Below, one piece after another: positions 5,126-22,951 of a stretch of DNA of 39,584 bases. The translations under genes were made by a program, and so were the position numbers. A model generated the notes under the pieces. It saw nothing but the letters and a program-made list of their open reading frames with translations. It was not told the DNA's origin and did no database searches. The first letter of the stretch is position 1. The number at the start of each line of letters is the position of its first letter. The DNA comes from Gallionella sp. (GTDB lineage: Bacteria > Pseudomonadota > Gammaproteobacteria > Burkholderiales > Gallionellaceae): the NCBI GenBank assembly GCA_024653675.1, contig JANLIB010000094.1:1-39584 (forward strand). The letters are read 5' to 3'.

Positions 5126-6070
5126 ATGACCGATATTATAAATAATCAGCCTGTATTTTTAGTTGCATCAGTTAGAACGGGTAGTACCCTTCTGCGGTTA
5201 ATGTTGGATTCTCACCCGAATATTGTGAATCCAGGTGAATGTGATTTTTTATTTGATCAAGTATCTGATGATGGGACACCACCAGATGTTGACCGCTATC
5301 GGGAATGGCTTAAGTTCGATAGAATTTTTCTGGGCAAGAAACTTGATGTAGATCCAACAATGAATTATGCAGGCCTGATGGATTCTTTTGTAAATCAAAT
5401 GCAACAGCATGATTCTGTTATTGTGATGAATGTTCACCGTCACTTTTTTCGCATACCAAAAATATTTCCCCGTGCAAAATATATTCATTTAATCCGCGAT
5501 GGCCGTGACGTTGCCCGATCTTGCATTGGTATGGGATGGGTTGGCAATGTTTATTATGGCATTGACACATGGCGTGATGCAGAAACCGCATGGGAAAAAT
5601 TAAAGGATACTTTACACCCATCGCAATATATGGAAATAAAGTATGAGGATTTGCTAGAAGATGTTGAACTTGGTTTGGGGCAAATATGCCAGTTTTTAGG
5701 TGTTGCATATTCGGAAAGCATGATGGATTATGCGTCTAAATCTACATATTCCTTGCCAGACAAAAGGCTTAGCTATCAATGGAAAACCAAATACAACAGA
5801 CGTGAATTATCATTAGTAGAAAGCAAAGTTGGGGACATGCTTTTAAGCCGTGGGTATGAATTAAGCGGAGTGTTTGCATACGGGCCGAGTTTGATTGAAA
5901 AAGCAGAACTATATGTTCAAAATAAATGGTTTCGTATTAGGCGCCAAGTATCGGCCTATGGTTTTTCATTGTTTCTTCAGTACTATTTGGCGAGAAAACT
6001 TGGTATTTCCCAATGGGAAAGGGCGCTAAAAGCAAAAATAAACGCTGCAAATGCCAAGATGCTCAAATAA
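5126..6070 (+). CDS. PAPS-dependent sulfotransferase family protein
   Basis: A 314-aa cytoplasmic sulfotransferase (Sulfotransfer_3-like) expected to transfer sulfate from PAPS to a sugar. The 5'-phosphosulfate loop is SVRTGSTLLRLMLDSHPN at residues 15-32 and the 3'-phosphate motif is HLIRDGRDVARS at 121-132. The usual GDKTP-type segment with a catalytic Lys is replaced by MNVHRHF near 101-107, so activity or substrate may differ. Codon use is markedly AT-rich compared with neighbours, suggesting separate acquisition. GAGGG precedes the ATG. The IS1595-type insertion begins two bases after its stop; because the target duplication contains the stop codon, the protein is intact. Confidence 0.85.
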   Translation: MTDIINNQPVFLVASVRTGSTLLRLMLDSHPNIVNPGECDFLFDQVSDDGTPPDVDRYREWLKFDRIFLGKKLDVDPTMNYAGLMDSFVNQMQQHDSVIVMNVHRHFFRIPKIFPRAKYIHLIRDGRDVARSCIGMGWVGNVYYGIDTWRDAETAWEKLKDTLHPSQYMEIKYEDLLEDVELGLGQICQFLGVAYSESMMDYASKSTYSLPDKRLSYQWKTKYNRRELSLVESKVGDMLLSRGYELSGVFAYGPSLIEKAELYVQNKWFRIRRQVSAYGFSLFLQYYLARKLGISQWERALKAKINAANAKMLK

Positions 6071-6072: not shown

Positions 6073-7183
6073 CGTGCTTATCGGGTTGTCACACCCACCC
6101 ACTAGGGGTAGTATGTTGAGCCTAATCGTCAATACGGAGCGAACATGATTATCGACGTACTTGAACGAGAAGAGCTCCCGTTCCCCCATTCGCTGCAGGA
6201 GTTTCAGCGCCTGTTCCCAGACGAAGCTGCGTGCGCAAAGTATCTTGAGCGTGCCAGATGGAGAGATGGCTTCGTCTGCCCGCACTGCGCGTCGGCTGAT
6301 GAGCCACGGTACGTTTCTACGCGCCTTAAGGTACTTCGCTGCCGTCATTGTCGCCGCGACACCAGTCTCACTGCGGGCACGGTCATGGAACGCACGCACA
6401 CGCCGCTTTCGGTCTGGTTTTGGGGTGCTTACCTGGTTGCCAGCCAGACGCCCGGCATGTCGGCTGTCCAGTTCCGGCGCCAACTCGGTTTGCCGTGCTA
6501 CGAAACCGCTTTCCAAATTCTTCACAAGCTGCGTGTCGGCATGGTGCGGCCAGATCAAGACAGGATCGGCGGCAAGCCGGAAATCATCGTCGAAGCCGAC
6601 GAAACCTGGATTGGCGGCCACACGCGGGGTAAAGGACGCGGTGTCCACGATATGGTGCTCGTGGCCTGCGCCGTCGAAGTCAGGCAACGCAAGCGTACCG
6701 GTAGCCTCAACAAGCGAAAAACCGGGCGGTACGCCGGGCGCGTCCGACTCGCGGTGGTGCCAGACCGGAGCACAAAGTCGCTGGTCGGCTTCATCGAAAG
6801 CGCCGTGGTGCCGGGTACCTCCGTTATCACCGACGATTGGAGCGGCTACTCGAAGCTGGGCGAGCGCGGCTTCTGCCACACCGCCGTCGCGGAGCGGGGC
6901 GACATGGAAGTCGCGGATACCTTTTTGCCCATCATTCATCTCGTGTTCTCCAATCTCAAAACCTGGCTGCGCGGCACCCATCATGGTGTCAGCCCTCAAC
7001 ATCTGCAGGCGTACCTCAACGAGTTCACCTTCCGTTTCAACCGCCGCTTCTACCCCTTCAACGCCTTCCGCTCCCTGCTCGGCATCGCGGGCGATGTCTC
7101 CGCTCCGACCTATGCGCAGTTCTATGCGAAAAAATCATGAGCTACTACATCTAGTAGGTGGGTGTGACAACCCGATAAGCACG
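6073..7183 (+). mobile_element. Intact IS1595-family insertion sequence
   Basis: The 1111-bp element is bounded by 32-bp inverted repeats at 6073-6104 and 7152-7183 with one mismatch (6100 versus 7156). The outer bases are CGTGCTTATCGGGTTGTCAC at the left, and the complement is present at the right. It carries a single full-length transposase and is flanked by the exact 8-bp duplication AAATAAAC. Near-perfect ends, intact transposase and unmutated duplication point to a recent insertion. It landed between the convergent sulfotransferase and beta-helix lipoprotein genes, whose coding ends would otherwise be only about 22 bases apart. Confidence 0.95.
6145..7140 (+). CDS. IS1595-family transposase
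   Basis: A 331-aa DDE/N-type transposase. An N-terminal zinc ribbon (CPHC ... CRHC, about residues 48-72) binds DNA. The catalytic core shows EADETWIGG for the first Asp and SVITDDWSGY for the second, and the end has LQAYLNEFTFRFNRR, as usual in IS1595 members. Length is normal for the family. Two other long frames overlap it (6161-7189 on the same strand and 5983-7002 on the opposite one) but are GC-driven shadows without family motifs. The gene lies wholly inside the inverted repeats. Confidence 0.95.
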   Translation: MIIDVLEREELPFPHSLQEFQRLFPDEAACAKYLERARWRDGFVCPHCASADEPRYVSTRLKVLRCRHCRRDTSLTAGTVMERTHTPLSVWFWGAYLVASQTPGMSAVQFRRQLGLPCYETAFQILHKLRVGMVRPDQDRIGGKPEIIVEADETWIGGHTRGKGRGVHDMVLVACAVEVRQRKRTGSLNKRKTGRYAGRVRLAVVPDRSTKSLVGFIESAVVPGTSVITDDWSGYSKLGERGFCHTAVAERGDMEVADTFLPIIHLVFSNLKTWLRGTHHGVSPQHLQAYLNEFTFRFNRRFYPFNAFRSLLGIAGDVSAPTYAQFYAKKS

Positions 7184-7212: not shown

Positions 7213-9939
7213 TCAATACATGCCTAAGGCTTTTTCGACAGCACCTATATCAATCACACCATTCTGCGGCCGGATAGTGCGAAAGAAATCCGACCACACT
7301 GGAACACCTGAACCGCCATCGATGGCATAACTTTCCGGCATGGGTATCCAATCCGTAATGAGTATCGGTGGCGTCGCGGTGAACAGCGGCGAGGTGTTCT
7401 TTACTTGATCATCGTTTGAGTTGTTCGACTCCGTATAGCAAGCAACTCCGCATGCACTGCTGTCGATTAGGACGGAATTACTCGCAGACGGTGCGTAGGC
7501 CAGATTGTTCCGCACTGTAACATTGGTTACTCCGGATTCAATCAGAGCAGCAGCGAAATTCGTGTTAGCATCTTCGCTGTAAGCCGTATTATTGTAAATT
7601 CTAACTTGGTCTGGAGGCGGTGCAGGGCTGTTACTGCCACTGGGGCCTTCTCGCTTTACGTTAACGCAATATCTCCCGTTTGATCCTCCTGTCAAGTCGC
7701 AGATATTGTTCCGCGCGGTAATCTCACTGCCACCAACGACGATCGCGCTTCTGGTTAGCGACAGATTAGCCTGATACCAGTTGCGTTCAACTATCACATT
7801 TCGTACCCGCTCGTCATTAAACTCATTTTGCGGTCCCAGGTGCATCAAATATCCCTGGTTTCCGGCAAGGACTTTGTTATCTGAAATAACATTGAGTTCG
7901 GTATATCCACCCGTTGACCCACCCAAGCCGTGAGGCAGCTCGCTATTAAGATAACCGGATGATTCCGATGCGCATCTTCCATTGCTGCCAGTAGCACTTC
8001 CGGTTGCACACCATATTGGACCGTGCATCTTGATAATCAAGCCCCCTGCTCTGTAGAACGAGTTGTTCGATATAACCAGTTTGTATCCTTGCGGTATCCG
8101 TATTATGTGCGACCCTGTTGCCATATTGTCTGCTGTATTTCCAAGTGAATTTCCCAGAATGGCACTGTTGTTTAGTGTCGCATATATGCTCCAACCGGCA
8201 CCGCTGCCACCCTGGATATGGATCGGCGTAAAGGTTGAGTCGACGATGGCAATCTGTTCATAAATGGAATGCCCACCGGGGGTGGTGGTGTTCGCAATAT
8301 CCAACGTGGTCGATGCGAACGCAAAACCCTCATGCGCGTCATGTACATTCATTCGCAGAATCGTCAGTTGATCGATGCCTCCGCCTGATTGGAAGCCGTA
8401 TGACGCAGACTTGCTCAGGCCATCAAAATCCAAATCCATTACCCGCCAATCTTTGATTCCAGGTGTCGAAGAGCCAGAAAATAGCAAAATGGCTGTGTCG
8501 CCTGTCATCTGTACTATCGGAGGTGCTCCCGTTGTACCAAATGCTCCCACGATTCCAGGCCCAGTTTTGTTAATTCTAGCTGATGATGGCGCGTTGAATG
8601 TGTCACCAGATTTGAAAAGTACTCGTTTACCCGTAAGCGCATAACTACTGATCGCAGTTGCAAAGTTTGACTCCTGCGCCGTGCTGGCGTCAGCAGGACA
8701 ACCGCCCACTCCCGCGGTGGGGAGGGCTGTCGCGCCAACACATATGGTGTTCGTTCCCGCAAACACCGTATCGGGATCCTGAACCACGATCTGGGCGCAA
8801 CTGTTCGACACCGTGTTTGTGCCGTCCGTTGCGGTCAAGGCAACGGTATAGATGCCGGGCGTCTCGAACACATGCGCCGCCACCGGGCCGGTAGCGGAGT
8901 TCTTGCTGCTGACGCCGGGTTGGGCGCCGCTTACCCAGGTGCCTGAACCGGGATCATCGAAATCCCAGCGATATTCAAGATCATGGAACGGCTTTGTCGT
9001 TGCGGTAGCGGTAGTGGCCGTGGCGTCAAAGAATACCGCCAGCGGCGCAACGCCGTTAAAGCGGCTTGGGTCATTGGAAAGGGTAATGGCGCCGGTATCC
9101 CCGGTGGTCGAGCAGCCGGAGATCATGCCGCCCGCCAGTTGCCAGACCCCGGTTGCGTCATTAGCAACGAAGGTTGCAGCAATGGTAAAGCTCGTGTCGG
9201 TTCTGCTGGCAACCGTGTAGGTGCCGTCATAGCTGGTGGTTCCGCTGATGGTGATGGCTGTGCCGACGGTCAGGGTGTTTGCCGAGGTGACGGTGACACT
9301 GCCTACGCCCGCACTGGCAAAACCGGATATGACCGAGGAAACGTTTGAGGGAGCGACGGTGATGGTGACGCTCTGGTTGGCCGACCCGCCCGCGCCTGTG
9401 CACGTTACGGTGTAGGTGGTGGTTGCCGTCAGAGCCCCTGTGTCGAATAATCCTGTTGTGCTGGTTCCGCCAGAGCCGGAAGATGAGGAGCATGAGGTGC
9501 TGTTGGTCGATGTCCAGCTGACTGTGGTGCTGTCGTTATAGGCGATTAAAGTTGATCCAGAGGATACGGATACGACAGGGGCGGAAGCGGAACCAACGGT
9601 GATGGTTATGCTCTGGCTGGTCGATCCATTCGCACCTGTGCACGTTACGGTATAGGTAGTGGTTGTGGTCAGAGCCCCTGTGTCGAATGATCCTGTTGTG
9701 CCGGATCCGCCGGAGCCGGAAGTAGAGGAGCAAGAGGTGCTGTTGGTCGAAGTCCATGTGATTGTGGTACTGCTGCCACTGGCGATTGAAGTCGAAGTTG
9801 CGGTAAGAAGTACGGTTGGGGTGGTAATGGTAGTTGTAGAACCCCCGCCGCCACACGCGGTAAGGACAGATACTGCCAGCAATACCGCAAAAAAGTTTCG
9901 CAGTATTGTTATTGAACCGGCTGCGCTGTTTTTCAACAT
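7213..9939 (-). CDS. Secreted lipoprotein with Ig-like repeats, PKD domain and right-handed beta-helix
   Basis: A 908-aa predicted lipoprotein. The signal peptide ends in a lipobox (VLTAC, Cys29) followed by GGGGS, so it is probably outer-membrane anchored. Residues about 41-116 and 121-196 are two near-identical Ser/Thr-rich Ig-like repeats with an 80-residue period. Residues about 287-388 form a PKD domain (APLAVFFDAT, YRWDFDDPG, HVFETPGIYTVALTATDG). Residues about 390-900 have the Asn-ladder pattern of a parallel beta-helix (VISNNSFYRAGG, VRIYNNTAYS, VTVRNNLAYA) typical of polysaccharide lyases, epimerases and adhesins. AAAGGA precedes the ATG. In a polysaccharide locus it may bind or process the polymer; catalytic residues cannot be assigned. 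Confidence 0.82.
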   Translation of the reverse strand: MLKNSAAGSITILRNFFAVLLAVSVLTACGGGGSTTTITTPTVLLTATSTSIASGSSTTITWTSTNSTSCSSTSGSGGSGTTGSFDTGALTTTTTYTVTCTGANGSTSQSITITVGSASAPVVSVSSGSTLIAYNDSTTVSWTSTNSTSCSSSSGSGGTSTTGLFDTGALTATTTYTVTCTGAGGSANQSVTITVAPSNVSSVISGFASAGVGSVTVTSANTLTVGTAITISGTTSYDGTYTVASRTDTSFTIAATFVANDATGVWQLAGGMISGCSTTGDTGAITLSNDPSRFNGVAPLAVFFDATATTATATTKPFHDLEYRWDFDDPGSGTWVSGAQPGVSSKNSATGPVAAHVFETPGIYTVALTATDGTNTVSNSCAQIVVQDPDTVFAGTNTICVGATALPTAGVGGCPADASTAQESNFATAISSYALTGKRVLFKSGDTFNAPSSARINKTGPGIVGAFGTTGAPPIVQMTGDTAILLFSGSSTPGIKDWRVMDLDFDGLSKSASYGFQSGGGIDQLTILRMNVHDAHEGFAFASTTLDIANTTTPGGHSIYEQIAIVDSTFTPIHIQGGSGAGWSIYATLNNSAILGNSLGNTADNMATGSHIIRIPQGYKLVISNNSFYRAGGLIIKMHGPIWCATGSATGSNGRCASESSGYLNSELPHGLGGSTGGYTELNVISDNKVLAGNQGYLMHLGPQNEFNDERVRNVIVERNWYQANLSLTRSAIVVGGSEITARNNICDLTGGSNGRYCVNVKREGPSGSNSPAPPPDQVRIYNNTAYSEDANTNFAAALIESGVTNVTVRNNLAYAPSASNSVLIDSSACGVACYTESNNSNDDQVKNTSPLFTATPPILITDWIPMPESYAIDGGSGVPVWSDFFRTIRPQNGVIDIGAVEKALGMY
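9356..9530. repeat. Internal coding repeat, copy 2 (Ig-like module)
   Basis: This stretch of the lipoprotein gene is closely similar to 9596-9770 at an exact 240-base offset, equal to 80 codons. Shared blocks include GCCTGTGCACGTTACGGT and GAGGTGCTGTTGGTCGA. It reflects an in-frame module duplication that could expand or contract by recombination or slippage. Confidence 0.85.
9596..9770. repeat. Internal coding repeat, copy 1 (Ig-like module)
   Basis: Partner of 9356-9530 at a 240-base offset. It encodes the first Ig-like module just after the lipobox region. Divergence between copies is modest, suggesting a fairly recent duplication or ongoing conversion. Confidence 0.85.
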
Positions 9940-10401: not shown

Positions 10402-11208
10402 TTATTCCTTCCCAAGTACCGCTGTGAGGCTGTCGCCTCGCAGGGTTTGTGGCGGACGTGGCACAAAACCGAACTTCAACTTGAAGTGCTTGCGGAATTC
10501 GAAAGGGGGTTCCGGGAAAAAGGAAGGGCGCAGTGACGGGTCTGATAGATCGCGTTCCAGAATTTGTTTTGCGCTATCGGTAAGCCGGGTGCAGGCATGC
10601 GCTGGCTCCAGATGACGCGCCGAAGTGAGGCTCAGGCTTTCCTTAACCTGGACCCGGAGGATGCCAGGTACCAGCGATTGCGCCTCGTTACACGCCACGT
10701 TATCGCCCGAAAAGAAGACAGTGGGAATTTTCGCCAGAGCCCATGCGTAGAGCGCCCGCAGGTCGAACTCTCCGATGGGTCGGCCATTCAGTTTGTAGCT
10801 GCGAATGCGTCGGCTGCTGTAAGTATGGGAGAGGGTGCCACCGCTTCCTTCCATTGCATGCTGACCAACGAAGCCCAGCGCATCGACCGGCACCTCTCCC
10901 CTTAGCGACTCGCGCAGCAGACCGGTGAAGTTCCTGGCGTCATCGTGACGATAAAACGTTACGCGCCGATCGAGTCGTTCAGGAAGCAGGCCGCCACAGC
11001 CGTGGCCGTCCCAGACTGAGATGCGCAGCAGTGTTGGACCTGGAATGTCAGGGGGTCCGAGCAGGGCTCTTATGACACTGTTTACCTCATCAGTCGCCAG
11101 TGCTTTTGCAGCTTCGTGACGCGGCCCGCTTTGCGTCTGTTCCCAGGACTCGACCCCGGCCACACCCTCGATGTCGGTGACCAGGAAAATATGCCGCCAG
11201 CCAGCCAT
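10402..11208 (-). CDS. M55 family metallopeptidase (DppA-like D-aminopeptidase fold)
   Basis: A 268-aa protein of the zinc-dependent M55 family, whose founder DppA is a D-aminopeptidase. The metal-ligand pattern is kept: TDIEGVAG (Asp12, Glu14), VWDGHGCGG (His69), GFVGQHAMEG (His117), NGRPIGEFDL (Glu147) and a later FFSGDN. The longest frame begins 40 codons earlier inside the CapK-like gene, but the chosen ATG follows GAGGAAG and lies only 11 bases after the CapK stop, implying one operon. An M55 enzyme is unexpected in a polysaccharide locus. It might process a D-amino-acid or amide substituent or precursor. The substrate is unknown. Confidence 0.82.
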   Translation of the reverse strand: MAGWRHIFLVTDIEGVAGVESWEQTQSGPRHEAAKALATDEVNSVIRALLGPPDIPGPTLLRISVWDGHGCGGLLPERLDRRVTFYRHDDARNFTGLLRESLRGEVPVDALGFVGQHAMEGSGGTLSHTYSSRRIRSYKLNGRPIGEFDLRALYAWALAKIPTVFFSGDNVACNEAQSLVPGILRVQVKESLSLTSARHLEPAHACTRLTDSAKQILERDLSDPSLRPSFFPEPPFEFRKHFKLKFGFVPRPPQTLRGDSLTAVLGKE

Positions 11209-11219
11209 TGCCTGCTTCC

Positions 11220-12584
11220 TCACTCTTTCAGCTCGGACACGATCCAGCGCGTTTTGCCGCTTGCCGCGACCGGCAGCGAGTCGACAATTCGCACCACCAA
11301 CGACATTGTTTCGCCGAGCGAATCGCAAATGGTTTTTTCGACGGAACGCTTGACCTTTTCCGCCGATGCTCCAGGCACGACGATTTCAATGTCAAGACTG
11401 TCGAGTCTCCGCTGGATTACACGAAACTGTGCAACCTCCGGCAGGCGGTCGAAGAGATGGGTGAAGAAAAGGCCGTGAATCATCCGCCCTTGGGGTGTTC
11501 GGATCGAGTCATGCACCCGGCCGCCAAGTTCCTCGATCAGCGGCAAAGTGCGACCGCAAGCGCAGGTCTTCGCGCTGGGTGCGGCGAAATCTCCGATTTT
11601 GTAGCGCAGAAGCGGATGTGTCCACTCGTTCAGATTGGTGATTACCAATTCCGCCTGCTCGCCTGGCATGGCCTGCCTGCCGTTAACGAGAAACTCGATC
11701 AGCAGATTGTCATGGCTGACATGAAGGCCGTGATCGGGGCATTCAAAGGCGATTATGCCAAGTTCGGTGCAACCATATTCCGTTACGGTCGGGCAGCCCA
11801 GGACAGATTCGATGCGGTCGCGCTGTGTCCGGGTCAGTCCTTCTCCGGTATAGATTGCCGCCTCAATGCCGAGTTTTTTACCGTCGAGCCCGAGTCGCTC
11901 CAGTCCGGTACAGAAACGCAAGAGACCTGATGCAATTGTCCGCAGCATGCGTGGGCGGGTGTGCAGAAAGGTCTTGTAACCCTGGGCGATGGCCGCGTCA
12001 TCGAGCATGTAGACATCGACCATGCTGATATTCTTAAGTGACCAAGACACGCGACGCTTGAGTGCGGCGAACCGGCCGCTTGCAGTGCCAGTAAGGTCGG
12101 ACAGGCCGCTCCAGATCATTCCTTCGCGGACACCGAAATCCATGCCCCACCAGCGCCGTCCCCGCGCCAGGGCTGCGAAGGTGTTGGCGCTAATGGAGCG
12201 TCGATCAAGGCGAAAGAAAAATGGCTCCCCCGTGGAGCCGCTGGATGCCCAGACGTCATAAGGGGGACTTTCGCCGGCTGCTTCGAACCTGTCGTAGCCG
12301 GCCCGCAGATCGGTTTTGGAGATGATCGGCAGGGCGTTGATATCGGCAAAGCTGCGCAGGTCGCCTGGTTCAAATCCGCTTTGCTTCATGGCATCGCGAT
12401 AGAACGGGACGCGCGCATGGCAGTACGTCAATAGGTCGCGCAGTTTCGCCAGATTCTGCTGTTCCACCTGCTCTCTGGGTAGCCACTGGCTTTGTTCCAG
12501 CGCCGCCAGCGCGGGTCGGTAATCCCAGCCACGAGACGTCTGTACCAGGTCTACCCAGGTCTTGGCAAAGCGATTACGTATCAT
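11220..12584 (-). CDS. CapK/PaaK-type adenylate-forming enzyme (phenylacetate-CoA ligase-like)
   Basis: A 454-aa member of the ANL superfamily related to phenylacetate-CoA ligase, coenzyme F390 synthetase and CapK. Motifs include the ATP-binding loop WASSGSTGEP at 112-121, EYGCTELG at 269-276, RYKIGD at 327-332 and a C-terminal Lys in ASGKTRW. Such enzymes activate a carboxylate as an adenylate and load it on CoA or a carrier protein. A longer start at 12614 exists, but the ATG at 12584 has AAGGG before it and overlaps the GT4 gene by only 11 bases. An ACP (17991) and a FemAB-like transferase (15658) in the same strand run suggest a loading-and-transfer pathway. Confidence 0.87.
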   Translation of the reverse strand: MIRNRFAKTWVDLVQTSRGWDYRPALAALEQSQWLPREQVEQQNLAKLRDLLTYCHARVPFYRDAMKQSGFEPGDLRSFADINALPIISKTDLRAGYDRFEAAGESPPYDVWASSGSTGEPFFFRLDRRSISANTFAALARGRRWWGMDFGVREGMIWSGLSDLTGTASGRFAALKRRVSWSLKNISMVDVYMLDDAAIAQGYKTFLHTRPRMLRTIASGLLRFCTGLERLGLDGKKLGIEAAIYTGEGLTRTQRDRIESVLGCPTVTEYGCTELGIIAFECPDHGLHVSHDNLLIEFLVNGRQAMPGEQAELVITNLNEWTHPLLRYKIGDFAAPSAKTCACGRTLPLIEELGGRVHDSIRTPQGRMIHGLFFTHLFDRLPEVAQFRVIQRRLDSLDIEIVVPGASAEKVKRSVEKTICDSLGETMSLVVRIVDSLPVAASGKTRWIVSELKE

Positions 12585-13686
12585 GTGAGCCCTTTCCGGC
12601 AGTGAGTTGTGCATAGAGCGTCAGGGTGCGCTCGGCGATGACGCCGGTGTCCCACATCCTGCGTGCGCGAGCTTGTGCCTGCTGTCCGAGGCGTAAACAG
12701 AGAGCAGGGTCACGGAATAGCCGCGCAAGGCGATCGGCAAGTGCATCAACATCGCGTGCTTCAATCACGAATCCGGTCTCGCCGTCCTTGATCATTTCAG
12801 GTATGGCGCCCACTGCTGTTGCAATCACTGGAAGCGCAGCCGCCATCCCTTCTATGATCGAAACGGGCATGTTTTCGGTATGGGAAGGGAGGATAAGAAC
12901 ATCGGCATCGCGAATCGCCTGCTCCTTGGTATCCCCGGAAACGGTGCCGAGGAACTCAATTCTGTCGCGGATGCCGCATTGCAGCGCTTCTTGTTCGAGG
13001 AGAATGCGGGTGCCGGGATCACGGTCATCGCCGCCAAGGGCGAGCACCAGATTGGGAAACTCGGGTGCAAGTTTGGCGACAGCTTTGATTGCATCGAAAT
13101 GGCCCTTGCGCTCGCAGAAGTTGGCAAGGAACAATATTCTTCGACATTGTCGTGGCGGGCGTGACGCCAACCGCTCGTAGGCACTGCAATCGACCGGGTT
13201 CGGAATAACCTCTATTGCTGTGCGAGGCTCGATTGCTGTGACACGACTGCGCCACTCCTCGGAGAGAACGACCAAACGCGTAGCTGAGCGCAAGATGAGG
13301 CGGATTAGCCAGCGTTGCATTCCGCCAGCGCGCTCGAAAACCTGATGAAAGTCTCCACCGTGAATGCGCAAAAGCGCCGGACGCCCAACTAGTCGTGCAC
13401 CGAACATTATCGCCGCATGGCTATACAGGCTGCGATCGCTTACCGCATGGATGTCAGCGAGCACTGCGCCCGAACGTAACATCCGCAACGCGGTCTTGGC
13501 GATGAGCCAGATGCCGTAGGTGAGGCGTTCGGAAAGCTTGCGATCTCGTGGCTGTCGAAAAGTGCTGATCACATCGATATCGTAGCAGTCGCGAACCCGC
13601 GACTCGACGAAGGCGCGAACCGATGAGCTGACTCCACATGCCACTTGGGGTGGCCGCACCGGGCCAAAAACGAGGATTTTTTCCAT
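12574..13686 (-). CDS. Glycosyltransferase family 4 (GT-B fold)
   Basis: A 370-aa cytoplasmic GT4 enzyme adding a sugar from a nucleotide sugar. The N-terminus is MEKILVFGPVRPPQ with ACGVSSS, the linker contains VIPNPVDCSAY, and the C-terminal Rossmann domain has ILFLANFCERKGH, then LPSHTENMPVSIIEGMAA and GFVIEARD, the standard nucleotide-sugar binding region with its EX7E-like Glu. The longest frame starts at a TTG (13794) with an extra, non-homologous 36-residue leader; the ATG at 13686 gives the expected family start, though its ribosome site is weak. It is first in the tight GT4-CapK-M55 cluster. Confidence 0.9.
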   Translation of the reverse strand: MEKILVFGPVRPPQVACGVSSSVRAFVESRVRDCYDIDVISTFRQPRDRKLSERLTYGIWLIAKTALRMLRSGAVLADIHAVSDRSLYSHAAIMFGARLVGRPALLRIHGGDFHQVFERAGGMQRWLIRLILRSATRLVVLSEEWRSRVTAIEPRTAIEVIPNPVDCSAYERLASRPPRQCRRILFLANFCERKGHFDAIKAVAKLAPEFPNLVLALGGDDRDPGTRILLEQEALQCGIRDRIEFLGTVSGDTKEQAIRDADVLILPSHTENMPVSIIEGMAAALPVIATAVGAIPEMIKDGETGFVIEARDVDALADRLARLFRDPALCLRLGQQAQARARRMWDTGVIAERTLTLYAQLTAGKGSHDT

Positions 13687-13900
13687 TGCTTTACGCAGTT
13701 GGGCTGCATTTGTCAGAAGCGAAATTATTCGCGCGTAGCCTGTTGCCAGTACGAATAGTATTGCACCTGCAGAAGTGCCAACCGGTTTCTCCAAGGATCA
13801 TTACTCTCTGAACTAGTTCACAAAGCCCGCTGCTTGGCAAAATAGCTTTCATTATTCTCTTCCATAGGCTGCTTAAGTGTCTATCACCTGTCGTCGATTG

Positions 13901-14473
13901 CTATGGCAGTACTTGATTAGTGCTAGTGGCGGTTTCCTGATCCGCGCCTCGCGCAACAGGCGAAAGAGATCGCGGGATCACCCTGCCTGGCGGGGTAAGG
14001 ATGATAGAATCCGGAGGCACGTCCCGCGTGACGACACAGTTTGCGCCAACCATTGAATGGTCACCGATTGTGACACCTCCCAGTACGCGCGCACCGGGGT
14101 AGATGTCAACATTATTTCCGATCTTCGGTGTACCGGGGATTTGTCCCGTGCCCAGCGTGACATCATGGAAGATCAGGCAATCTTTTCCGATTTCAACATT
14201 GTTTCCTATCATGACGTTGGTGGGGTGGATGAGCTTCAGACCTGCGCCGATGCGAGTGCCGCTACGCCCGGCCCAGAGGTGGACGTTGTGGTGGCGTAAC
14301 GTCAGTTTGAGAATGCGATACAGTATCCACATCGGAATCCGCAGGAATTTGCTGGGTAATGAATCTGCCCACATTCCAAACCGGTAGATCGCCACAATCC
14401 AGAACCCGGGATTTGTATACCATCTGCCATGATCCTCGTATTTGGTGATGTCACGCCGCAAATTCTCAAACAT
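13901..14473 (-). CDS. Serine acetyltransferase-like hexapeptide-repeat acyltransferase
   Basis: A 190-aa left-handed beta-helix acetyltransferase of the CysE/LbH-SAT type found in polysaccharide loci. After an N-terminal helical region (MFENLRRDITKYEDHGRWY), hexapeptide turns begin with GAGLKLIHPTNVMIGNNVEI and run through KIGNNVDIYPGARVLGGVTI, with the catalytic His in FHDVTLG. It uses acetyl-CoA. In this setting the acceptor is probably a sugar hydroxyl or amine rather than serine, but serine cannot be excluded. It lies between the GT4 gene (about 210 bases away) and the SGNH gene (29 bases away). Confidence 0.85.
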   Translation of the reverse strand: MFENLRRDITKYEDHGRWYTNPGFWIVAIYRFGMWADSLPSKFLRIPMWILYRILKLTLRHHNVHLWAGRSGTRIGAGLKLIHPTNVMIGNNVEIGKDCLIFHDVTLGTGQIPGTPKIGNNVDIYPGARVLGGVTIGDHSMVGANCVVTRDVPPDSIILTPPGRVIPRSLSPVARGADQETATSTNQVLP

Positions 14474-14502
14474 TATTTATTGCGCAGTAGTGGATGTTAT
14501 TC

Positions 14503-15336
14503 TTAACGGGTTTGTTTGCCGATCACAGGCTGATCCGGGATGGCGGCGAGAACGGAGACAAGCTCGCGTGCGGCGCGAAGTCTTCCGGTTGTGTTCAGAT
14601 GTCCGCCATCGTCAGTGTAGGAAGGGAACATCGCCGGCGCAACGTTGCCATTCCATTCTGTCGATACTGCTGACCCATCCGGTGCTGTGGACTCGATGCG
14701 TGCAATGTCAAAAATTGGTTCGCGTCCTTTGTATGCTTCGCGCATGAGAGAGTTGTATTCCTCGCGGCGCATGTTTTCGAGGGTTCCGTAGGGCGCGCGG
14801 CCGAGCAGCCGTTTCAGGCTTTGCTTGAATCCGCCCTGCACGGTGGTGAGTGGCGCGGTAACGTGCACAAAGGCCGTGCCGGGGTTTCTTGCCTTGAGAT
14901 CATTGATAGCGGTTTGATAGCGGGAGAAGAGCGCCTTCGCGTCCGTATTTGCGGTGAAGTCAACGTAGCAGAATTTTACCAGCGCAATGTCGAGTCCAGT
15001 GGGCTGTTGCCCCATGGCCTGTTCGAAACTCCTGATTTTGAGAAATGGATCTCCATTCCTGTCGACCAATGCGTGCCCGAATGTTGCCGGTCCTACGCCT
15101 CCGGCATTCTGCGTCTCTGCCATATGAACGGGGATGCCTGCCGTATTTGATAGCTGGCTGACACCGTCGAGAAGGTTTCTGCCAACCGACCGGTGCCCGA
15201 AAAATATTTTACGTTGCGCGATATGCTGCAGGTCTGCACGGAGATTTACGTCAACGTCGGAGGCAAAGGCATCGGCTGAAGCTCCAACGGTGGCAAAGGC
15301 AAGAAGAGTACCCGCAACTGTTTGAAAAGCTGACAT
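14503..15336 (-). CDS. Exported SGNH-hydrolase-like protein
   Basis: A 277-aa protein with a cleavable signal peptide (hydrophobic stretch followed by ADAFAS-D). The nucleophile motif is FFGHRSVGRN (Ser50), a GHxSVG variant of the GDS block, and the C-terminal catalytic pair sits in TDDGGHLNTTG, which has the Asp-x-x-His spacing. It probably acts in the periplasm as an O-acyl hydrolase or transferase on the polymer. AGGAGA five bases before the ATG fixes the start. It is followed after 29 bases by the acetyltransferase-like gene, so an acetyl-adding and acetyl-removing pair is plausible. Confidence 0.78.
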   Translation of the reverse strand: MSAFQTVAGTLLAFATVGASADAFASDVDVNLRADLQHIAQRKIFFGHRSVGRNLLDGVSQLSNTAGIPVHMAETQNAGGVGPATFGHALVDRNGDPFLKIRSFEQAMGQQPTGLDIALVKFCYVDFTANTDAKALFSRYQTAINDLKARNPGTAFVHVTAPLTTVQGGFKQSLKRLLGRAPYGTLENMRREEYNSLMREAYKGREPIFDIARIESTAPDGSAVSTEWNGNVAPAMFPSYTDDGGHLNTTGRLRAARELVSVLAAIPDQPVIGKQTR

Positions 15337-15657
15337 GTAATTCTCCTGAATTCTTAAAGGTAAATATAAAACGGATTAATCAGCAGTCAGCAATAAAGGC
15401 TACAAAATTACTATTGACCTGGCCAGCAAATAGTATAACCGTCATACCGGCGAAGGCCGGTATCCAGTGGCGCGCAAGGCGCGCCGATAATTTGTTTTTG
15501 CTGGATTCCGGATCAAGTCCGGAATGACGAGGTTCATAGTGTTTGTTTGCCGGATCAATAGTAAAACCGCATTGCATTAGGATATGGTGTAGCCATATTT
15601 ACTGACGGCTGTGTATTCACTTGTAACAGGCATTATTCTACACTTAAGTCAGTGTGT
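15337..15657. other. Intergenic stretch holding a MITE-like repeat
   Basis: About 320 bases between the SGNH gene and the FemAB-like gene. The main content is the inverted-repeat element at 15440-15529. The SGNH promoter may lie in the AT-rich part next to 15340-15420, but no clear box was identified. Confidence 0.5.
15440..15529. repeat. MITE-like dispersed repeat with inverted ends (90 bp)
   Basis: The ends CGTCATACCGG and CCGGAATGACG are inverted repeats with one mismatch. Within them lie a second pair (CCGGCGAAGGCCGG and CCGGATCAAGTCCGG) and a GCGCGCAAGGCGCGCC core. This matches the widespread family of non-coding repeats starting CGTCATTCCGGC. It carries no gene. Confidence 0.85.
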
Positions 15658-16779
15658 TTAGTTGGATGGAATAGCTTTCAGAGCGGGCGGTAATTTCTGA
15701 TTTTTGTAAAGATTACGCAAGGATTCGAGAAGTCGCTCGCCAGGCGGCCTGGCACAGTGCAGATAAACCCTGAATAACCCGCAAAAGCTCATTTTACGAT
15801 AACGGATCGCGACCTCCTCGTCGCTCGGTCCGTCCGGGAGTCCGAGGTGAAGTGTCATATTATGGTGCTCAACGGCAAAAAGCGGGGCATCCCATAGAAA
15901 TTGCGCCGCACCTACTCTGGGCAGCCGGATATGGAAGTAGCCATGGATACCCATCATATCGAGTGCGCCTCCCCAGCGTTTTTTCCACTGAAGCAGATCA
16001 TCTTCCGGGCGCCCCAGCGAAGATCCCATGTCGTAATAGTCAAAGCCATTTTCGATCGCCCATTCAAGCGCGAGGTAAAAATTGATGGAGTTGGTTTCAC
16101 TCAGACGTTTGGAGTCGGAAAATATCATCTCTGGATAGCCGAAACGGATCGAACTCCAGTAGCGTATTCCCGCACGGGTGGTCACGCATCCGGTCTGGCA
16201 GGCGACCGCCTCGTTTCCCAGCATTACTAATTCAAGCCGCCCGAATTTCTGCGCCACCCTTCGAACCTCATCCGATCTCATTTGTGAGGCGCCGGGGCCG
16301 TGCCTTGCGCTTGCGTAGGGGCGGAGCATTTCCCGCTCTGCGCGGTTGATGCCGGTAATGTCGAGCACTTGTTGCATTCTATAGCGGCCCCGGCTTTTGC
16401 GCAGCCTGCGGCGCAATTCGCTTTCGAAGCCAGCCATGATCTCTTCGATCGGCTTTCCGAGCGGTACGATGAAGTGCAAAGACCGCGGCACGCGCAATGC
16501 GCCCGGGATCGGCATTTCGCTGACAATTGCGGTACGGTTTGATATATCCAGGCTCATTCTGCCGGTACAGACTTCAACGTCAGCGCCGAGCAGCGCCTTG
16601 GCCCATTCCCGCCGCGTTTTTCGGCCTGCATAGAGGATATCGCAGAGGCTGTTATTGCGGTGCGTGAGCCTGGTGATTTCCCATCGCCAAAGGCATGCGC
16701 GTCCAAGCTGTTCTCTTAATGATGCGGCTGTTTCTCTAAGCGAGAATCGCAGAGATGGTGATATGAGTTCCCGCATCAT
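15658..16779 (-). CDS. FemAB/BioF2-like GNAT acyltransferase
   Basis: A 373-aa protein of the FemAB-like/Acetyltransf_6 type. Diagnostic segments are the helical SELRRRLRKSRGRY near the middle, the strand RYWSSIRFGYPEM, and GFDYYDMGSSLGRPEDDLLQ followed by WKKRWGG, the usual final GNAT-like strand and loop. Relatives transfer acyl or aminoacyl groups, and one group is associated with exosortase-type loci. The longest frame starts at GTG 16818; ATG 16779 is preferred, although neither has a strong ribosome site. It lies downstream of the GT61 and ACP genes on the same strand. The donor (CoA, ACP or tRNA) is unknown. Confidence 0.75.
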   Translation of the reverse strand: MMRELISPSLRFSLRETAASLREQLGRACLWRWEITRLTHRNNSLCDILYAGRKTRREWAKALLGADVEVCTGRMSLDISNRTAIVSEMPIPGALRVPRSLHFIVPLGKPIEEIMAGFESELRRRLRKSRGRYRMQQVLDITGINRAEREMLRPYASARHGPGASQMRSDEVRRVAQKFGRLELVMLGNEAVACQTGCVTTRAGIRYWSSIRFGYPEMIFSDSKRLSETNSINFYLALEWAIENGFDYYDMGSSLGRPEDDLLQWKKRWGGALDMMGIHGYFHIRLPRVGAAQFLWDAPLFAVEHHNMTLHLGLPDGPSDEEVAIRYRKMSFCGLFRVYLHCARPPGERLLESLRNLYKNQKLPPALKAIPSN

Positions 16780-16863
16780 TGTTGCCGTTGTATGGATTTC
16801 ACCGGCTTCGGCAGGCACATGGAAATTGCCCGAAATAAGATGAATAGGTTAGGCATGGGTGAT

Positions 16864-17943
16864 TCATGCCGGAAAAAGATCAAGGGTGCGTTCCACCTCG
16901 GTGGGGTCGATGCTGAAACCACTGCCTTTCGGGGTGCCTACGACGAAGCCGAAATGCTGGTTATCACGGTCTGTCAGAGGCTTTAACGCGCTGACGAACC
17001 GGTTGGGCGGCTGCAAGGTTAATAACGAGCAACAGGATTGCAGTACAGCAATACCATGACAGAGTTGGCTACCCTCTACTCCCGCCACGGTTCGGGCTCC
17101 GGCACAGGCTGCAACTATGGTCGGAACATCAGCTTTCATCGGGTCGAGAATGCGAAAGCCCCGCCGGTCGCGCAGGCGCTCGGCAATCTCCATTTCATTT
17201 TGCAACAGACGCAGTTCTCCCATTTTGCCACGAAGAATAAATACGCCGGGATGAGTATCAGCCCTGATATGGGAAAGCAATCGGTTGCTCAAGGCGCGAA
17301 ACCGCAAATGCCTGTTCCTGTTCTGTCCCAGGTCCTCAAAGATTATGAGTTCCTTAAAAAAAGCGTTATGCAGACGCTCCGGCTTCATGCCCAGCCAGTC
17401 TTCATAACCCAGGGTGTGCAATCCGGCGGGCTGCGCCGTGGTCACGGGAATGCCTTCGGCACATGCCAGCGGATAGGTCAGGCAATCGTCTATCAGCCAT
17501 GAACCAAAGTATCTGTTTCCCCCCGCTGTGCAATATACGGCGCCGCAATCAATCTCTGTTTCCACTCGTACCAGTGGCAACCGGCTGGATCGGGGCGCCA
17601 GCCATGAATGGGCATCATCCTTGTAGAGCGCGCCATCAATTAACCAGACGTCTTTCAGCAGAAAGCCATGCGTAGGCTTGTGAAAGATACTGCCGCCTTC
17701 CATTGCGCGGCGCGGGTGCTCTGAAGTAAAAGCCCAGCCTGTTATACGTTCGATCTGACCGGGCAGGAAAAAGGCTGGGGGGGAAATGGAAGTTTCGCCC
17801 GGAGCGATCTCCCATGTTTTGATTGATGCGCTTTCCAGGGTGCGCGGCGCCTTACGGGTAAGAATCTTTCTAAGAATGTGTTCAATAGCGGCAAACGTCC
17901 ATATTGGACGGACTTTTCTTGCCACGGAATGAATTACAGACAT
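16864..17943 (-). CDS. Glycosyltransferase family 61 protein (DUF563)
   Basis: A 359-aa protein with the GT61 pattern: YFGSWLIDDCLTYPLAC in the middle, VFILRGKMGELRLLQNE, then the C-terminal AACAGARTVAGVEGSQLCHG and LLTLQPPNRF. GT61 enzymes are inverting transferases for xylose, GlcNAc and other sugars. A longer frame opens at TTG 17994, but ATG 17943 has AAAGG five bases upstream and leaves 47 bases after the ACP stop. It probably adds one residue of the repeat unit or a side branch. Confidence 0.8.
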   Translation of the reverse strand: MSVIHSVARKVRPIWTFAAIEHILRKILTRKAPRTLESASIKTWEIAPGETSISPPAFFLPGQIERITGWAFTSEHPRRAMEGGSIFHKPTHGFLLKDVWLIDGALYKDDAHSWLAPRSSRLPLVRVETEIDCGAVYCTAGGNRYFGSWLIDDCLTYPLACAEGIPVTTAQPAGLHTLGYEDWLGMKPERLHNAFFKELIIFEDLGQNRNRHLRFRALSNRLLSHIRADTHPGVFILRGKMGELRLLQNEMEIAERLRDRRGFRILDPMKADVPTIVAACAGARTVAGVEGSQLCHGIAVLQSCCSLLTLQPPNRFVSALKPLTDRDNQHFGFVVGTPKGSGFSIDPTEVERTLDLFPA

Positions 17944-17990
17944 GCGGCCTTTCTGTTGGACGGAGTAAATGCATAAGTCAGACGAACATT

Positions 17991-18233
17991 TCAACCCTTT
18001 TTGCGCGCAATAAAATTTGCAATCCGGTCGATGGAATCGAGGTTGTCGGGCAGCATCTCGCTGTCCTCAACCTTGATGCCGAAGGTATCTTCGATAAAGA
18101 AAATTACTTCGAGCACACCCGTGGAGTCGATGATGCCCCGATCCAGCAGCGACGCTCCGTCTTCAAGCACTGCCGGGTCTGCTACGTAAAAGTTCGATGT
18201 TATGAAAGCGCGAACCTGTTCTTTGGTTTCCAT
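17991..18233 (-). CDS. Acyl carrier protein
   Basis: An 80-aa stand-alone carrier protein. The attachment motif is GIIDSTGVLEVIFFIEDTFG, with Ser37 as the predicted phosphopantetheine site, followed by an acidic helix as in ACPs. AAAGGA lies upstream of the ATG. It precedes the GT61 gene by 47 bases and follows acyltransferase 3. Dedicated ACPs are known in exosortase-type polysaccharide loci alongside acyl ligases. Here the CapK-like enzyme (11220) could load it, and the FemAB-like protein or acyltransferase 3 could accept its cargo. The link is inference from co-location. Confidence 0.92.
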   Translation of the reverse strand: METKEQVRAFITSNFYVADPAVLEDGASLLDRGIIDSTGVLEVIFFIEDTFGIKVEDSEMLPDNLDSIDRIANFIARKKG

Positions 18234-20530: not shown

Positions 20531-22360
20531 TTAATCCAGTTCGAAAGCCGTCTCATAATTCTGCTTGAGCGCCGGATCCTGTTCTTCCTTACGCAGGTAG
20601 CAATTGCCTACCACGAGGACATCCAGTTCGGTGCCCATGAAGCAGCGAAACGCATCTTCCGGTGAGCCCACAATGGGTTCGCCGCGCACGTTGAAGCTGG
20701 TATTAACCAGTAGCGGACAACCTGTCTTGCGCTCAAAGGCTGACAACAGCGCGTGGTAGCGCGGATTAGTATCTTTATGAACGGTTTGAATGCGTGCCGA
20801 GTAATCTACATGCGTAACAGCGGGAATGTCGGAGCGGGGAACGTTTAGCTTGTCTATGCCGAAGAGTTTATTTTCTTCGGCAGTCATTTCGCGGCGCCGA
20901 GATTTCACCACACCTGCCACCAGCAGCATGTACGGACTGTCGCCGTCCAGTTCGAACCAGTCACTGACGCGCTCGCGCAATATCGATGGCGCGAATGGCC
21001 GGAACGACTCGCGGTACTTGACCTTGAGGTTGAGCGTCTTTTGCATGGTTGGTGAGCGCGGATCGCCCAGGATCGAGCGATTGCCCAAGGAACGTGGGCC
21101 GAACTCCATGCGACCCTGGAACCAGCCGAACGCCTTGCCCTGTGCCAGATCTTCCGCACTGTTGTCAATTAAAGTAGCGTCTTCGAGTACAGTAAACTTC
21201 GCGCCGCAACTGTTCAGGCGCGCCTCGATATCGGCCTGGGTAAATGCCGGACCAAGGTAAGCGCCCCGCATGGCATCACCACTTGCTTGCCGCTTCTGGC
21301 CGAGTTGCATGTGATAGCCGGCCAGCGCGGCACCCAGAGCCCCGCCCGCATCACCCGCCGCAGGCTGGATATAAATATGTTCGAAGCTGCCGTCGCGCAA
21401 TATCTTGCCGTTTGCTACGCAGTTGAGCGCAACCCCGCCCGCCATGCACAGATTGCTGATCCCCGTTTCCTTGCGCAGTGACCGCGTGAGCCGCAATACC
21501 ACTTCTTCAGTGACGGCCTGAATTGATGCGGCCAGATCCATGTGCTTTTGTGTTAACAACTGATCAGGTTTGCGTGGCGGGCCGCCGAAAAGATTGTCGA
21601 ATTTCCTGTTGGTCATGGTCAGGCCGGTGCAGTAGTCGAAGTACGACATATCCAGCCTGAACGATCCGTCCGGCTTAACGTCTATCAGGTGTTTGAACAT
21701 CAATTCCGCGTATTTCGGCTCGCCATAGGGGGCGAGTCCCATGACCTTGTATTCGCCGGAGTTAACCTTGAAGCCGGTGTAATAAGTTACGGCTGAGTAC
21801 AACAGGCCAAGTGAATGCGGGAAATGGATTTCCTTGATCACCTCAAGGGTATTGCCTTTTCCGATCGCAACGGAGGTCGTTGCCCATTCCCCGACACCGT
21901 CCATCGTCAGTACGACAGCCTCTTCAAAGGGCGATGGGAAGAAAGCGCTCGCTGCGTGGCTGAGATGATGTTCGCTGAACAACAACTGTTTGTTCCAGTT
22001 TCCGTCTCTATCCAGTTTACGGAACTCCTTCATCAGAAGATCTTTCAGGAAGAGTTTTTCCCGCAACCACAAGGGGATCGCCATCGAAAATGACTTGATA
22101 CCGCGCGGTGCGAATGTCAGGTAGGTCTCAAGCAGCCGCTCAAATTTAAGAAACGGTTTGTCATAGAACACGATGTGATCCACATCGCCAAGCCCGATGC
22201 CGCCTTCAGTCAGGCAATAGCCAACCGCATGCACTGGAAACCGGGAATCATGTTTCTTGCGCGTGAAACGCTCTTCCTGAGCAGCGGCAACGATGCGTCC
22301 GTCCTCGATCAACGCCGCAGCGCTGTCGTGATAAAGCGCAGAAATCCCAAGAACACGCAA
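20531..22360 (-). CDS. Carbamoyltransferase (NodU/TobZ family)
   Basis: A 609-aa O-carbamoyltransferase that uses carbamoyl phosphate and ATP to carbamoylate a sugar hydroxyl. The N-terminal YrdC-Kae1-like domain shows GISALYHDSAAAL (His11) and EEHHLSHAASAFF-type metal ligands (His131, His132, His135) followed by LTMDGVGEW (Asp154). The C-terminal domain includes NTSFNVRGEPIV and SPEDAFRCF. Length is normal. It is the last gene of a compact unit after SxtJ and DUF5989, an arrangement seen with carbamoyltransferases in surface-polysaccharide loci. Confidence 0.95.
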   Translation of the reverse strand: MRVLGISALYHDSAAALIEDGRIVAAAQEERFTRKKHDSRFPVHAVGYCLTEGGIGLGDVDHIVFYDKPFLKFERLLETYLTFAPRGIKSFSMAIPLWLREKLFLKDLLMKEFRKLDRDGNWNKQLLFSEHHLSHAASAFFPSPFEEAVVLTMDGVGEWATTSVAIGKGNTLEVIKEIHFPHSLGLLYSAVTYYTGFKVNSGEYKVMGLAPYGEPKYAELMFKHLIDVKPDGSFRLDMSYFDYCTGLTMTNRKFDNLFGGPPRKPDQLLTQKHMDLAASIQAVTEEVVLRLTRSLRKETGISNLCMAGGVALNCVANGKILRDGSFEHIYIQPAAGDAGGALGAALAGYHMQLGQKRQASGDAMRGAYLGPAFTQADIEARLNSCGAKFTVLEDATLIDNSAEDLAQGKAFGWFQGRMEFGPRSLGNRSILGDPRSPTMQKTLNLKVKYRESFRPFAPSILRERVSDWFELDGDSPYMLLVAGVVKSRRREMTAEENKLFGIDKLNVPRSDIPAVTHVDYSARIQTVHKDTNPRYHALLSAFERKTGCPLLVNTSFNVRGEPIVGSPEDAFRCFMGTELDVLVVGNCYLRKEEQDPALKQNYETAFELD

Positions 22361-22372
22361 TTCCCTCTCCTC

Positions 22373-22522
22373 TCAGAACAACGTGTAAATAAACGGCGCA
22401 ATTGCCGAACCCTGGGCCAGCACAATCAGCACCCCGAGAATAGCCATCATCACAAAAATCGGCCACAGCCAGTATTTTTTTCTGGCGCGCAGGAAGGCCC
22501 AGAGCTCTTTGATCATTTCCAT
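22373..22522 (-). CDS. DUF5989 family small membrane protein
   Basis: A 49-aa single-pass protein found by translating the gap between SxtJ and the carbamoyltransferase. It begins MEMIKELWAFLRARKKYWLW, continues with a hydrophobic span, and ends LAQGSAIAPFIYTLF. The ELWxFLRxRKK start and SAxAPFIYTLF end are the DUF5989 signature. AAGAGG before the ATG supports the start. It begins 9 bases after the SxtJ stop and ends 12 bases before the carbamoyltransferase start, so all three are probably co-translated. Function unknown. Confidence 0.9.
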   Translation of the reverse strand: MEMIKELWAFLRARKKYWLWPIFVMMAILGVLIVLAQGSAIAPFIYTLF

Positions 22523-22531
22523 ATCAGCCTC

Positions 22532-22951
22532 TTAAAATTGATTATTCATGGAACCGGGAGGCGGCCCCGGCGGCTCACGCAGCATCCAGTATGAATCTTC
22601 ATCTGGTTGGAATTTCAGGCGCAAGGGGTCTTTTCCGGTGAGTCGTATCACCATACCGAGCGGAGTTATTACAACATAGAAAAGGATGCCCAATGCAATT
22701 GGGCTGACCACCTTGCCCAGCAGTACGCCAAGCTTCATCCACAGCCGGTTAAGCCCTGCAAGCAACGCCGGTTTCACCAGCGCAACCAGCGCAAACGCTA
22801 TGGCTACGCCAACAGACCACCACCGGATTGCTTCCCCGTGGAACAACGGCCAACCGGCAATTATCAGAAATACAGCCGCAAATACCAAGCCAAATACGCG
22901 GTCGGACGAGCCTTCTATATGCTGTTCTCTGTTAAATTCTTCGTGTGCCAT
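22532..22951 (-). CDS. SxtJ family membrane protein
   Basis: A 139-aa protein with about three membrane segments (FGLVFAAVFLIIAGWPLF, VGVAIAFALVALVKPALL and a third near SPIALGILFYVVITPLGM) and a C-terminal cytoplasmic tail DPLRLKFQPDEDSYW that is characteristic of the SxtJ family. The family name comes from a saxitoxin cluster where it sits beside a carbamoyltransferase. Here it is the first gene of the SxtJ-DUF5989-carbamoyltransferase unit. It may anchor or assist the carbamoyltransferase at the membrane, but no function is established. Confidence 0.88.
   Translation of the reverse strand: MAHEEFNREQHIEGSSDRVFGLVFAAVFLIIAGWPLFHGEAIRWWSVGVAIAFALVALVKPALLAGLNRLWMKLGVLLGKVVSPIALGILFYVVITPLGMVIRLTGKDPLRLKFQPDEDSYWMLREPPGPPPGSMNNQF

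Follow-up and report, generated by a model that had tools for sequence, protein, structure and literature searches.

A conserved GT4-CapK-M55 gene trio and an exosortase-type carrier protein in a predicted Gallionella polysaccharide locus

We analyzed a 39,584-nucleotide stretch of DNA from Gallionella sp. (GenBank assembly GCA_024653675.1, contig JANLIB010000094.1), hereafter the window, which is one entire contig (C30) of a 2.94-Mb genome assembled in 307 contigs with an estimated completeness of 99.99%. The frames that we took as genes from position 37593 down to 7213 all lie on the minus strand except for one GMC oxidoreductase. The run encodes Wzx, several glycosyltransferases, a sulfotransferase, an exosortase-type ATPase, AlgX/SGNH proteins, a carbamoyltransferase, a deacetylase, and an acyltransferase-3, a gene content that marks it as a predicted polysaccharide locus. 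Within it we focused on a GT4 glycosyltransferase, a CapK/PaaK-type adenylate-forming enzyme (here CapK), and an M55 metallopeptidase. An earlier note, made from the letters alone, had joined CapK and M55 with a carrier protein and a FemAB-like transferase into a single decoration pathway. The trio lies as follows:

12574 to 13686, minus strand: GT4 glycosyltransferase (PF00534, 126 bits)
11220 to 12614, minus strand: CapK/PaaK-type adenylate-forming enzyme, 464 amino acids (NCBIfam PaaK-type models and solved PaaK relatives)
10402 to 11208, minus strand: M55 (DppA-like) metallopeptidase, 268 amino acids (Pfam PF04951, 143.7 bits; cut-off, 25)

The assignment of CapK to the PaaK/CapK adenylate-forming family, already proposed in the earlier note, was borne out by both profiles and structural relatives. 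NCBIfam PaaK-type models matched with E values down to 3e-34, all below their equivalog cut-offs, and solved phenylacetate-CoA ligases with E values down to 4.5e-24 (4r1l); Pfam gave no match at an E value of 0.01. PaaK-type enzymes form an acyl-adenylate and then pass the acyl group to a thiol, an amine, or a hydroxyl. The M55 assignment held as well. In an alignment with the D-aminopeptidase DppA (1hi9; E value, 5e-15), all of the residues that we take to be metal ligands were aligned (D12, E14, H69, H117, and E147), and H128 fell at the position of the presumed active-site histidine. The PF04951 score together with the conserved ligands places the protein in the M55 family, but it scored only 74.7 bits against the DppA equivalog NF058634 (cut-off, 430). 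Its true start is probably the ATG at 11208, 11 nucleotides behind the CapK stop. Because the protein starts almost at the first catalytic strand, with no leader visible by eye, it is probably cytosolic.

The trio was found in the same order in locus L015 of a metagenome-assembled genome of Nitrosomonadales, which belongs to another genus of the same family (genome G797, also G909). The GT4, CapK, and M55 proteins are 80, 83, and 84% identical between the two genomes. CapK and M55 are spaced 11 nucleotides apart in the window and 12 nucleotides apart in L015, with GT4 and CapK overlapping in each genome. The GT4 reading frame of the window opens at 13794, but its methionine and the homology to L015 begin at 13686 (the L015 alignment runs from residue 37); an alternative ATG of CapK at 12584 gives an 11-nucleotide overlap with the end of GT4. 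The ratio of nonsynonymous to synonymous substitution rates (dN/dS) between the window and L015 was 0.17 for GT4, 0.18 for CapK, and 0.11 for M55. The trio is thus under purifying selection, with M55 constrained at least as strictly as its two neighbors by these point estimates. Genes of the PKD/beta-helix type adjoin the trio in both genomes, on its upstream side in L015 but on its downstream side in the window. Beyond M55, L015 continues with a cyclase-like gene and then chemotaxis-type genes (named by eye from their translations).

We next looked at how widely the genes and their pairing occur (the genome counts of the protein and profile searches include the window's own genome). Searches with the window M55 found relatives in 3 of the 61 nearest genomes (E value, 1e-3), 3 of 369 genomes of the class (1e-10), and 20 of 399 genomes of the order (1e-5); a five-row M55 profile matched 21 of 398 genomes of the phylum (1e-10). 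A pattern scan of species genomes, which reaches close relatives only, gave four M55 loci, L015 among them. In total, we examined 47 M55 loci, corresponding to 38 distinct genes (nine duplicates), mostly with flanks of about 1.5 kb (some shorter; L015 and L016 longer). CapK adjoined M55 in only two of the 38, those of the window and L015. Conversely, M55 was present in a single one of 34 CapK loci (the window's own left out; drawn from a longer list of matches), namely, L065 of G909, which is contained letter for letter in L015. M55 matches occurred in 119 plasmid records and CapK matches in 233, all below 60% identity; among the best 30 and the best 25 of these, respectively, two accessions were shared, with the genes hundreds of kilobases apart. 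The earlier note had proposed co-occurrence of the two genes as a check, and the outcome is mixed: the pairing is conserved in two genera of one family and absent at the other CapK and M55 genes compared. Among the matches listed, the titles and abstract openings of open-licence literature did not describe a CapK-M55 pairing. The GT4-CapK-M55 trio is real and conserved but rather rare.

CapK itself is more common, with relatives in 20 of the 61 nearest genomes (E value, 1e-3) and 38 of 158 genomes of the family (1e-20). In 21 of the 34 CapK loci (the L015 relative included), the gene directly upstream was GT4-like and on the same strand. By gene neighborhood, GT4-CapK is the recurring unit, with GT4 as the steady partner of CapK. 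Apart from L015, the CapK proteins were at most 33% identical over long alignments and reached 36 to 42% in short pieces only. In a study of Rubrivivax gelatinosus, capK beside a group-1 glycosyltransferase in the psc1 cluster is reported among the transposon insertions that restored planktonic growth of an aggregating mutant (PMC3684757), and a table of the PEP-CTERM/EpsH profiling paper lists the possible CapK protein NE2015 as "15th best hit" (PMC1569441). We found no substrate of polysaccharide-locus CapK/PaaK-like enzymes stated in the portions of open-licence literature that were accessible.

The window M55 is of a type distant from the other proteobacterial M55s sampled. Its second ligand motif, VWDGHGCG, recurred in L015, L016, L017, and L018, and the 33 remaining distinct genes carried other strings. 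In a tree of 32 proteins (the window's and those of 31 out of 37 loci; L098, L099, L105, L109, L112, and L118 were dropped by a motif filter), the five VWDGHGCG proteins fell on one side of a branch with support of 93/86, although the branches were long. L016 to L018 (Lentisphaerota and Chloroflexota) were recovered by a scan with VWDGHGCG among its peptide patterns, and since they were thus partly selected by the motif, the grouping is a lead rather than proof of where this M55 came from. The neighbors of L016 to L018, compared by eye and by tblastn with the window genes, differ from the genes of the window locus.

Upstream of the trio, the minus strand carries the carrier protein and its neighbors, so that the order from the carrier protein on is carrier protein, GT61, p386, SGNH, hexapeptide transferase, GT4, CapK, M55, and PKD protein:

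17991 to 18233, minus strand: stand-alone acyl/peptidyl carrier protein (ACP), 80 amino acids, with a DSTG attachment site (carrier profiles; 86% identical in G797, 79% in G036)
16864 to 17994, minus strand: GT61-family glycosyltransferase (PF04577, 39.7 bits; 68% in L060), overlapping the ACP gene by 4 nucleotides
15658 to 16818, minus strand: p386, an orphan protein of 371 to 386 amino acids, called FemAB/BioF2-like earlier (no family, no relative)
14503 to 15336, minus strand: SGNH/GDSL-like protein (weak GDSL match below cut-off; with the ACP in L039 [67%] and L060 [60%])
13901 to 14473, minus strand: hexapeptide (serine acetyltransferase-like [SAT]) transferase (PF00132; with the ACP and SGNH in L039 [75%])
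7213 to 9939, minus strand: PKD-domain protein, 908 amino acids, adjoining M55 (PKD domains; tblastn matches in L015 and L060)

The single strand run of the earlier note stands as far as the strand goes, but a 321-nucleotide gap (15337 to 15657) splits ACP-GT61-p386 from SGNH-SAT-GT4-CapK-M55. The intergenic stretch between SGNH and p386 contains palindromic pieces, ACCGGCCTTCGCCGGTATGACG at 15440 to 15461 on the minus strand; they resemble a dispersed palindromic repeat, of which the window holds one copy. A promoter and terminator scan found sites no more numerous than in shuffled sequences, and operon limits are therefore not settled by that scan. Rfam gave no match at gathering scores.

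The call of a stand-alone ACP with an intact DSTG site was sound. It scored 17.1 bits against the PP-binding model (Pfam cut-off, 20.8) and matched NCBIfam carrier models with E values down to 7e-15, below their cut-offs; among solved structures, peptidyl carrier proteins were nearest (E value, 1.3e-9), and D-alanyl carriers and ordinary ACPs matched too. The call of a FemAB/BioF2-like transferase was not confirmed: p386, which follows GT61 after 45 nucleotides, failed every profile test made. The protein had no match in NCBIfam or PADLOC, none in Pfam at an E value of 0.01 (one chance-level match at 0.11), and only chance-level matches in solved structures and PHROGs. It had no relative at an E value of 1e-4 in 398 other genomes of the order and none in plasmid, phage, or viral-contig records. 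An hhalign comparison of its profile with four Acetyltransf_6-type enzymes from ligase-centered loci gave a probability of 0.3% (E value, 0.2), against 0.1% (E value, 0.71) for a decoy, and hmmsearch against such enzymes was not significant. We also rejected a FemAB assignment based on the string YYDMGSS...KKRWG. Among the loci then compared, the pattern matched p386 alone; the Acetyltransf_6 enzymes in L119 and L121 did not fit it, and the profile tests were not significant.

In G797, the ACP (86% identity) lies not on the contig of the trio but on another, L039, together with NadE, asparagine synthase, a TIGR03098-like ligase (P0001; 482.5 bits, under the cut-off of 592), a PrmC-like gene, SGNH, a hexapeptide transferase, a PEP-CTERM-type response regulator, and an XrtA-type ATPase. 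A second relative, G036, is of the same genus as the window. One of its contigs carries the ACP (79%), SGNH, two exosortase-type hydrolases (scoring below the model cut-offs), GT61 (68%), and two beta-helix-type genes, and a second contig carries asparagine synthase and a ligase 86% identical to P0001. The ends of these contigs (C16 and C55) hold two parts of NadE, with the ACP contig ending in the first 79 NadE residues and the other beginning in NadE. Window proteins used as queries in the nearest-genome searches (E value, 1e-3) gave no CapK or M55 match in G036. The match to the PrmC-like gene in G036 is split into two pieces, each in its own frame (L061, 4360 to 5128), so the gene may be broken or misassembled. 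A third genome, G012 (L121), holds a fuller exosortase-A set, with TIGR03098 at 800 bits and with TIGR03099, TIGR03100, and TIGR03101 all above their cut-offs; it also has an Acetyltransf_6 enzyme and, by tblastn, a weak match of the carrier type. Eight ligase-centered stretches were fetched out of 19 listed ligase rows, and a carrier-like match was seen in three (L120, L121, and L124), all weak and from a crude search. As the ACP sits with the ligase in G797, and as G036 has ACP and ligase without a CapK or M55 match, the ancestral partner of the ACP was most likely a TIGR03098-like ligase rather than CapK.

The window's own genome differs in its adenylating enzymes. A search with P0001 gave no TIGR03098-like ligase match at an E value of 1e-60. 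PF00501 found two enzymes only, one like acetyl-CoA synthetase (80% identical to its G797 counterpart) and a FadD-like one of 605 amino acids (76.5%), both named from size and similarity. A CapK search returned CapK alone. With no such ligase found, CapK becomes a candidate loader of the ACP in this genome and, barring an assembly gap, the sole candidate of its kind near it.

We give about an even chance to the explanation that the window holds two modules of one exopolysaccharide locus, a remnant of an exosortase-A-type acyl set and a GT4-CapK-M55 trio making an acyl-decorated sugar. This explanation draws on gene order, conservation, packing, purifying selection, intact metal ligands, and separation of the modules in a relative. 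Module 1 would comprise the ACP, SGNH, and the hexapeptide transferase, joined here by GT61, as the remnant of a set whose usual activating enzyme is a TIGR03098-type ligase. In module 2, the tightly packed trio, GT4 would add a sugar to a lipid-linked repeat unit. CapK would adenylate a carboxylate and transfer the acyl group, either through a thioester or directly, onto the sugar handled by GT4 or onto its nucleotide-sugar precursor. M55, a di-metal aminopeptidase-type enzyme of probable cytosolic location, may act on an amide or short peptide and in that way supply, trim, or edit the acyl or aminoacyl group.

Several observations weigh against this two-module explanation. The trio is known from two genomes only, so a single conserved pairing is what ties M55 to CapK, and the substrates assigned to CapK and M55 are ones that we infer only. 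A GT4-like neighbor was not seen in 13 of the 34 CapK loci. G797 consists of draft contigs, and if those of the ACP and the trio were neighbors, the ACP-GT4 distance could be as short as about 12.5 kb; in the window, ACP and CapK are 5.4 kb apart. Five of the eight ligase-centered stretches lacked a carrier-like frame, through either a limit of the search or true absence, and as the window's own genome has no TIGR03098-like ligase match, module 1 need not work as in the relatives. Finally, the synonymous divergence (dS) of the trio, 0.59 to 0.75, is close to that of acetyl-CoA synthetase in the same two genomes (0.78), so simple shared ancestry of neighboring genes is possible. The idea that the whole trio was exchanged horizontally was rejected on the same grounds: its dS is lower than those of ACP, SGNH, and SAT (1.45, 1.38, and 1.23), but acetyl-CoA synthetase is similar, in a comparison with wide intervals and one housekeeping gene.

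M55 could instead be a passenger: a cytosolic enzyme of ordinary peptide turnover, placed behind CapK since the ancestor of the two genera and playing no part in polysaccharide synthesis. We consider this possible but rather unlikely. It would agree with the 36 of 38 distinct M55 genes that are not beside CapK, and also with a dipeptidase from a Streptomyces exopolysaccharide cluster that is reported to act in peptide metabolism and to be dispensable for yield, which did not change significantly upon its loss; yet the mutant polysaccharide is also reported to span a wider range of molecular weights (PMC11078827). The 11- to 12-nucleotide spacing kept in both genomes, the low dN/dS of M55, and its distance from the other proteobacterial M55s sampled also argue against a passenger. 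The pathway of the earlier note seems improbable to us. In it, CapK would charge the ACP with an adenylated amino acid or acyl group, p386 would move that group onto the polymer, and M55 would process it. This pathway keeps some probability because CapK is the sole candidate of its kind near the ACP, its strongest point, and the likeness of the ACP to peptidyl and D-alanyl carriers, the constraint on M55, and the placement of all genes on one strand within 8 kb also fit. What speaks against it is that relatives hold two separate gene sets (ACP with ligase in L039 and G036; GT4-CapK-M55 in L015), with ACP and CapK-M55 on separate contigs in G797 and the ACP present without a CapK match in G036. 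The 321-nucleotide gap divides its members, solved PaaK-type relatives of CapK are mostly named CoA ligases or synthetases, and profile and structure-database searches gave p386 no transferase identity. We regard this single-pathway explanation as doubtful and do not favor it. A TIGR03098-like ligase or another partner might also be present in the organism but missed by the assembly, leaving module 1 a plain exosortase-type set. With 307 contigs and a window that is one whole contig, such a gap is possible, and both relatives with this ACP have the ligase, but the estimated completeness and the failure of both the P0001 and PF00501 searches to find one make this very unlikely.

The trio itself might, as a speculative and quite improbable extension, be a carrier-free exopolysaccharide aminoacylation cassette. 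CapK would link an amino acid (perhaps a D-amino acid) to the GT4 sugar, the divergent M55 would free the amino acid from a peptide or remove wrong aminoacyl groups, and CapK may also load the orphaned ACP. The tightly packed peptidase gene hints at an amide or peptide substrate, and CapK/PaaK-like genes of polysaccharide loci are recurrent in the family. The two-module result is also a caution that an adenylating enzyme encoded near an ACP need not be the one that loads it.

Other features of the locus were noted. PKD/beta-helix-type proteins (window, 7213 to 9939; L015, 535 to 5836; L060, 2 to 1294 and 2642 to 4870) are about 36 to 45% alike in aligned pieces and occur in multiple copies beside either GT4-CapK-M55 or GT61. 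The L015 homologue of the window PKD protein has a beta-helix region, and these proteins perhaps have a polymer-processing or matrix role. An IS1595-type transposase (6145 to 7140; 194 bits; cut-off, 75) lies between the PKD/beta-helix gene and a sulfotransferase gene. The two sulfotransferase-family genes of the locus (5126 to 6070 and 34301 to 35197) suggest a sulfated polymer. A NodU-like carbamoyltransferase adjoins an SxtJ-family small protein (20531 to 22951), and at 26467 to 28840, the GMC oxidoreductase gene, the sole plus-strand gene inside the run, ends within a minus-strand SDR gene. A defense system was rejected, as none of five proteins matched in PADLOC.

Compared with known systems, the window resembles Dlt (D-alanylation) in having an adenylating enzyme and a small carrier protein in one region. 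In contrast to Dlt, the carrier scores 26.9 bits against a DltC cut-off of 68, CapK matches PaaK-type models rather than DltA, and neither DltB nor DltD was seen among the window proteins scanned. M55 belongs to the same family as DppA and aligns with it at every metal ligand and at the active-site histidine, but it scores far under the equivalog cut-off, has VWDGHGCG in place of the usual DSH-type motif, and lies in a window whose scanned proteins include no peptide transporter. With GT4-CapK pairs, such as that of the Rubrivivax gelatinosus psc1 cluster (PMC3684757), the window shares a glycosyltransferase beside a CapK/PaaK-like gene in a polysaccharide cluster; only the window and L015 showed an M55 gene following CapK. 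The exosortase A (XrtA/PEP-CTERM) acyl set comprises the TIGR03098 ligase, TIGR03099 decarboxylase, TIGR03100 and TIGR03101 hydrolases, a carrier protein, and Acetyltransf_6 enzymes. The ACP, SGNH, and hexapeptide transferase of the window have counterparts in or beside such sets in relatives, the carrier being of the relatives' kind. The window also has a candidate XrtA-type ATPase, scoring below the TIGR03015 cut-off (289.5 bits; cut-off, 324.5), and a match below cut-off to the exosortase-associated kinase profile TIGR03018 (166.5 bits; cut-off, 230.65). The differences are the missing TIGR03098-like ligase match in the window's own genome, the lack of exosortase hydrolases among the window proteins scanned, and the GT4-CapK-M55 trio, which did not appear in the G797 and G036 sets. 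The carrier-protein module is therefore of a known exosortase-type kind, and the GT4-CapK-M55 trio is the rare part.

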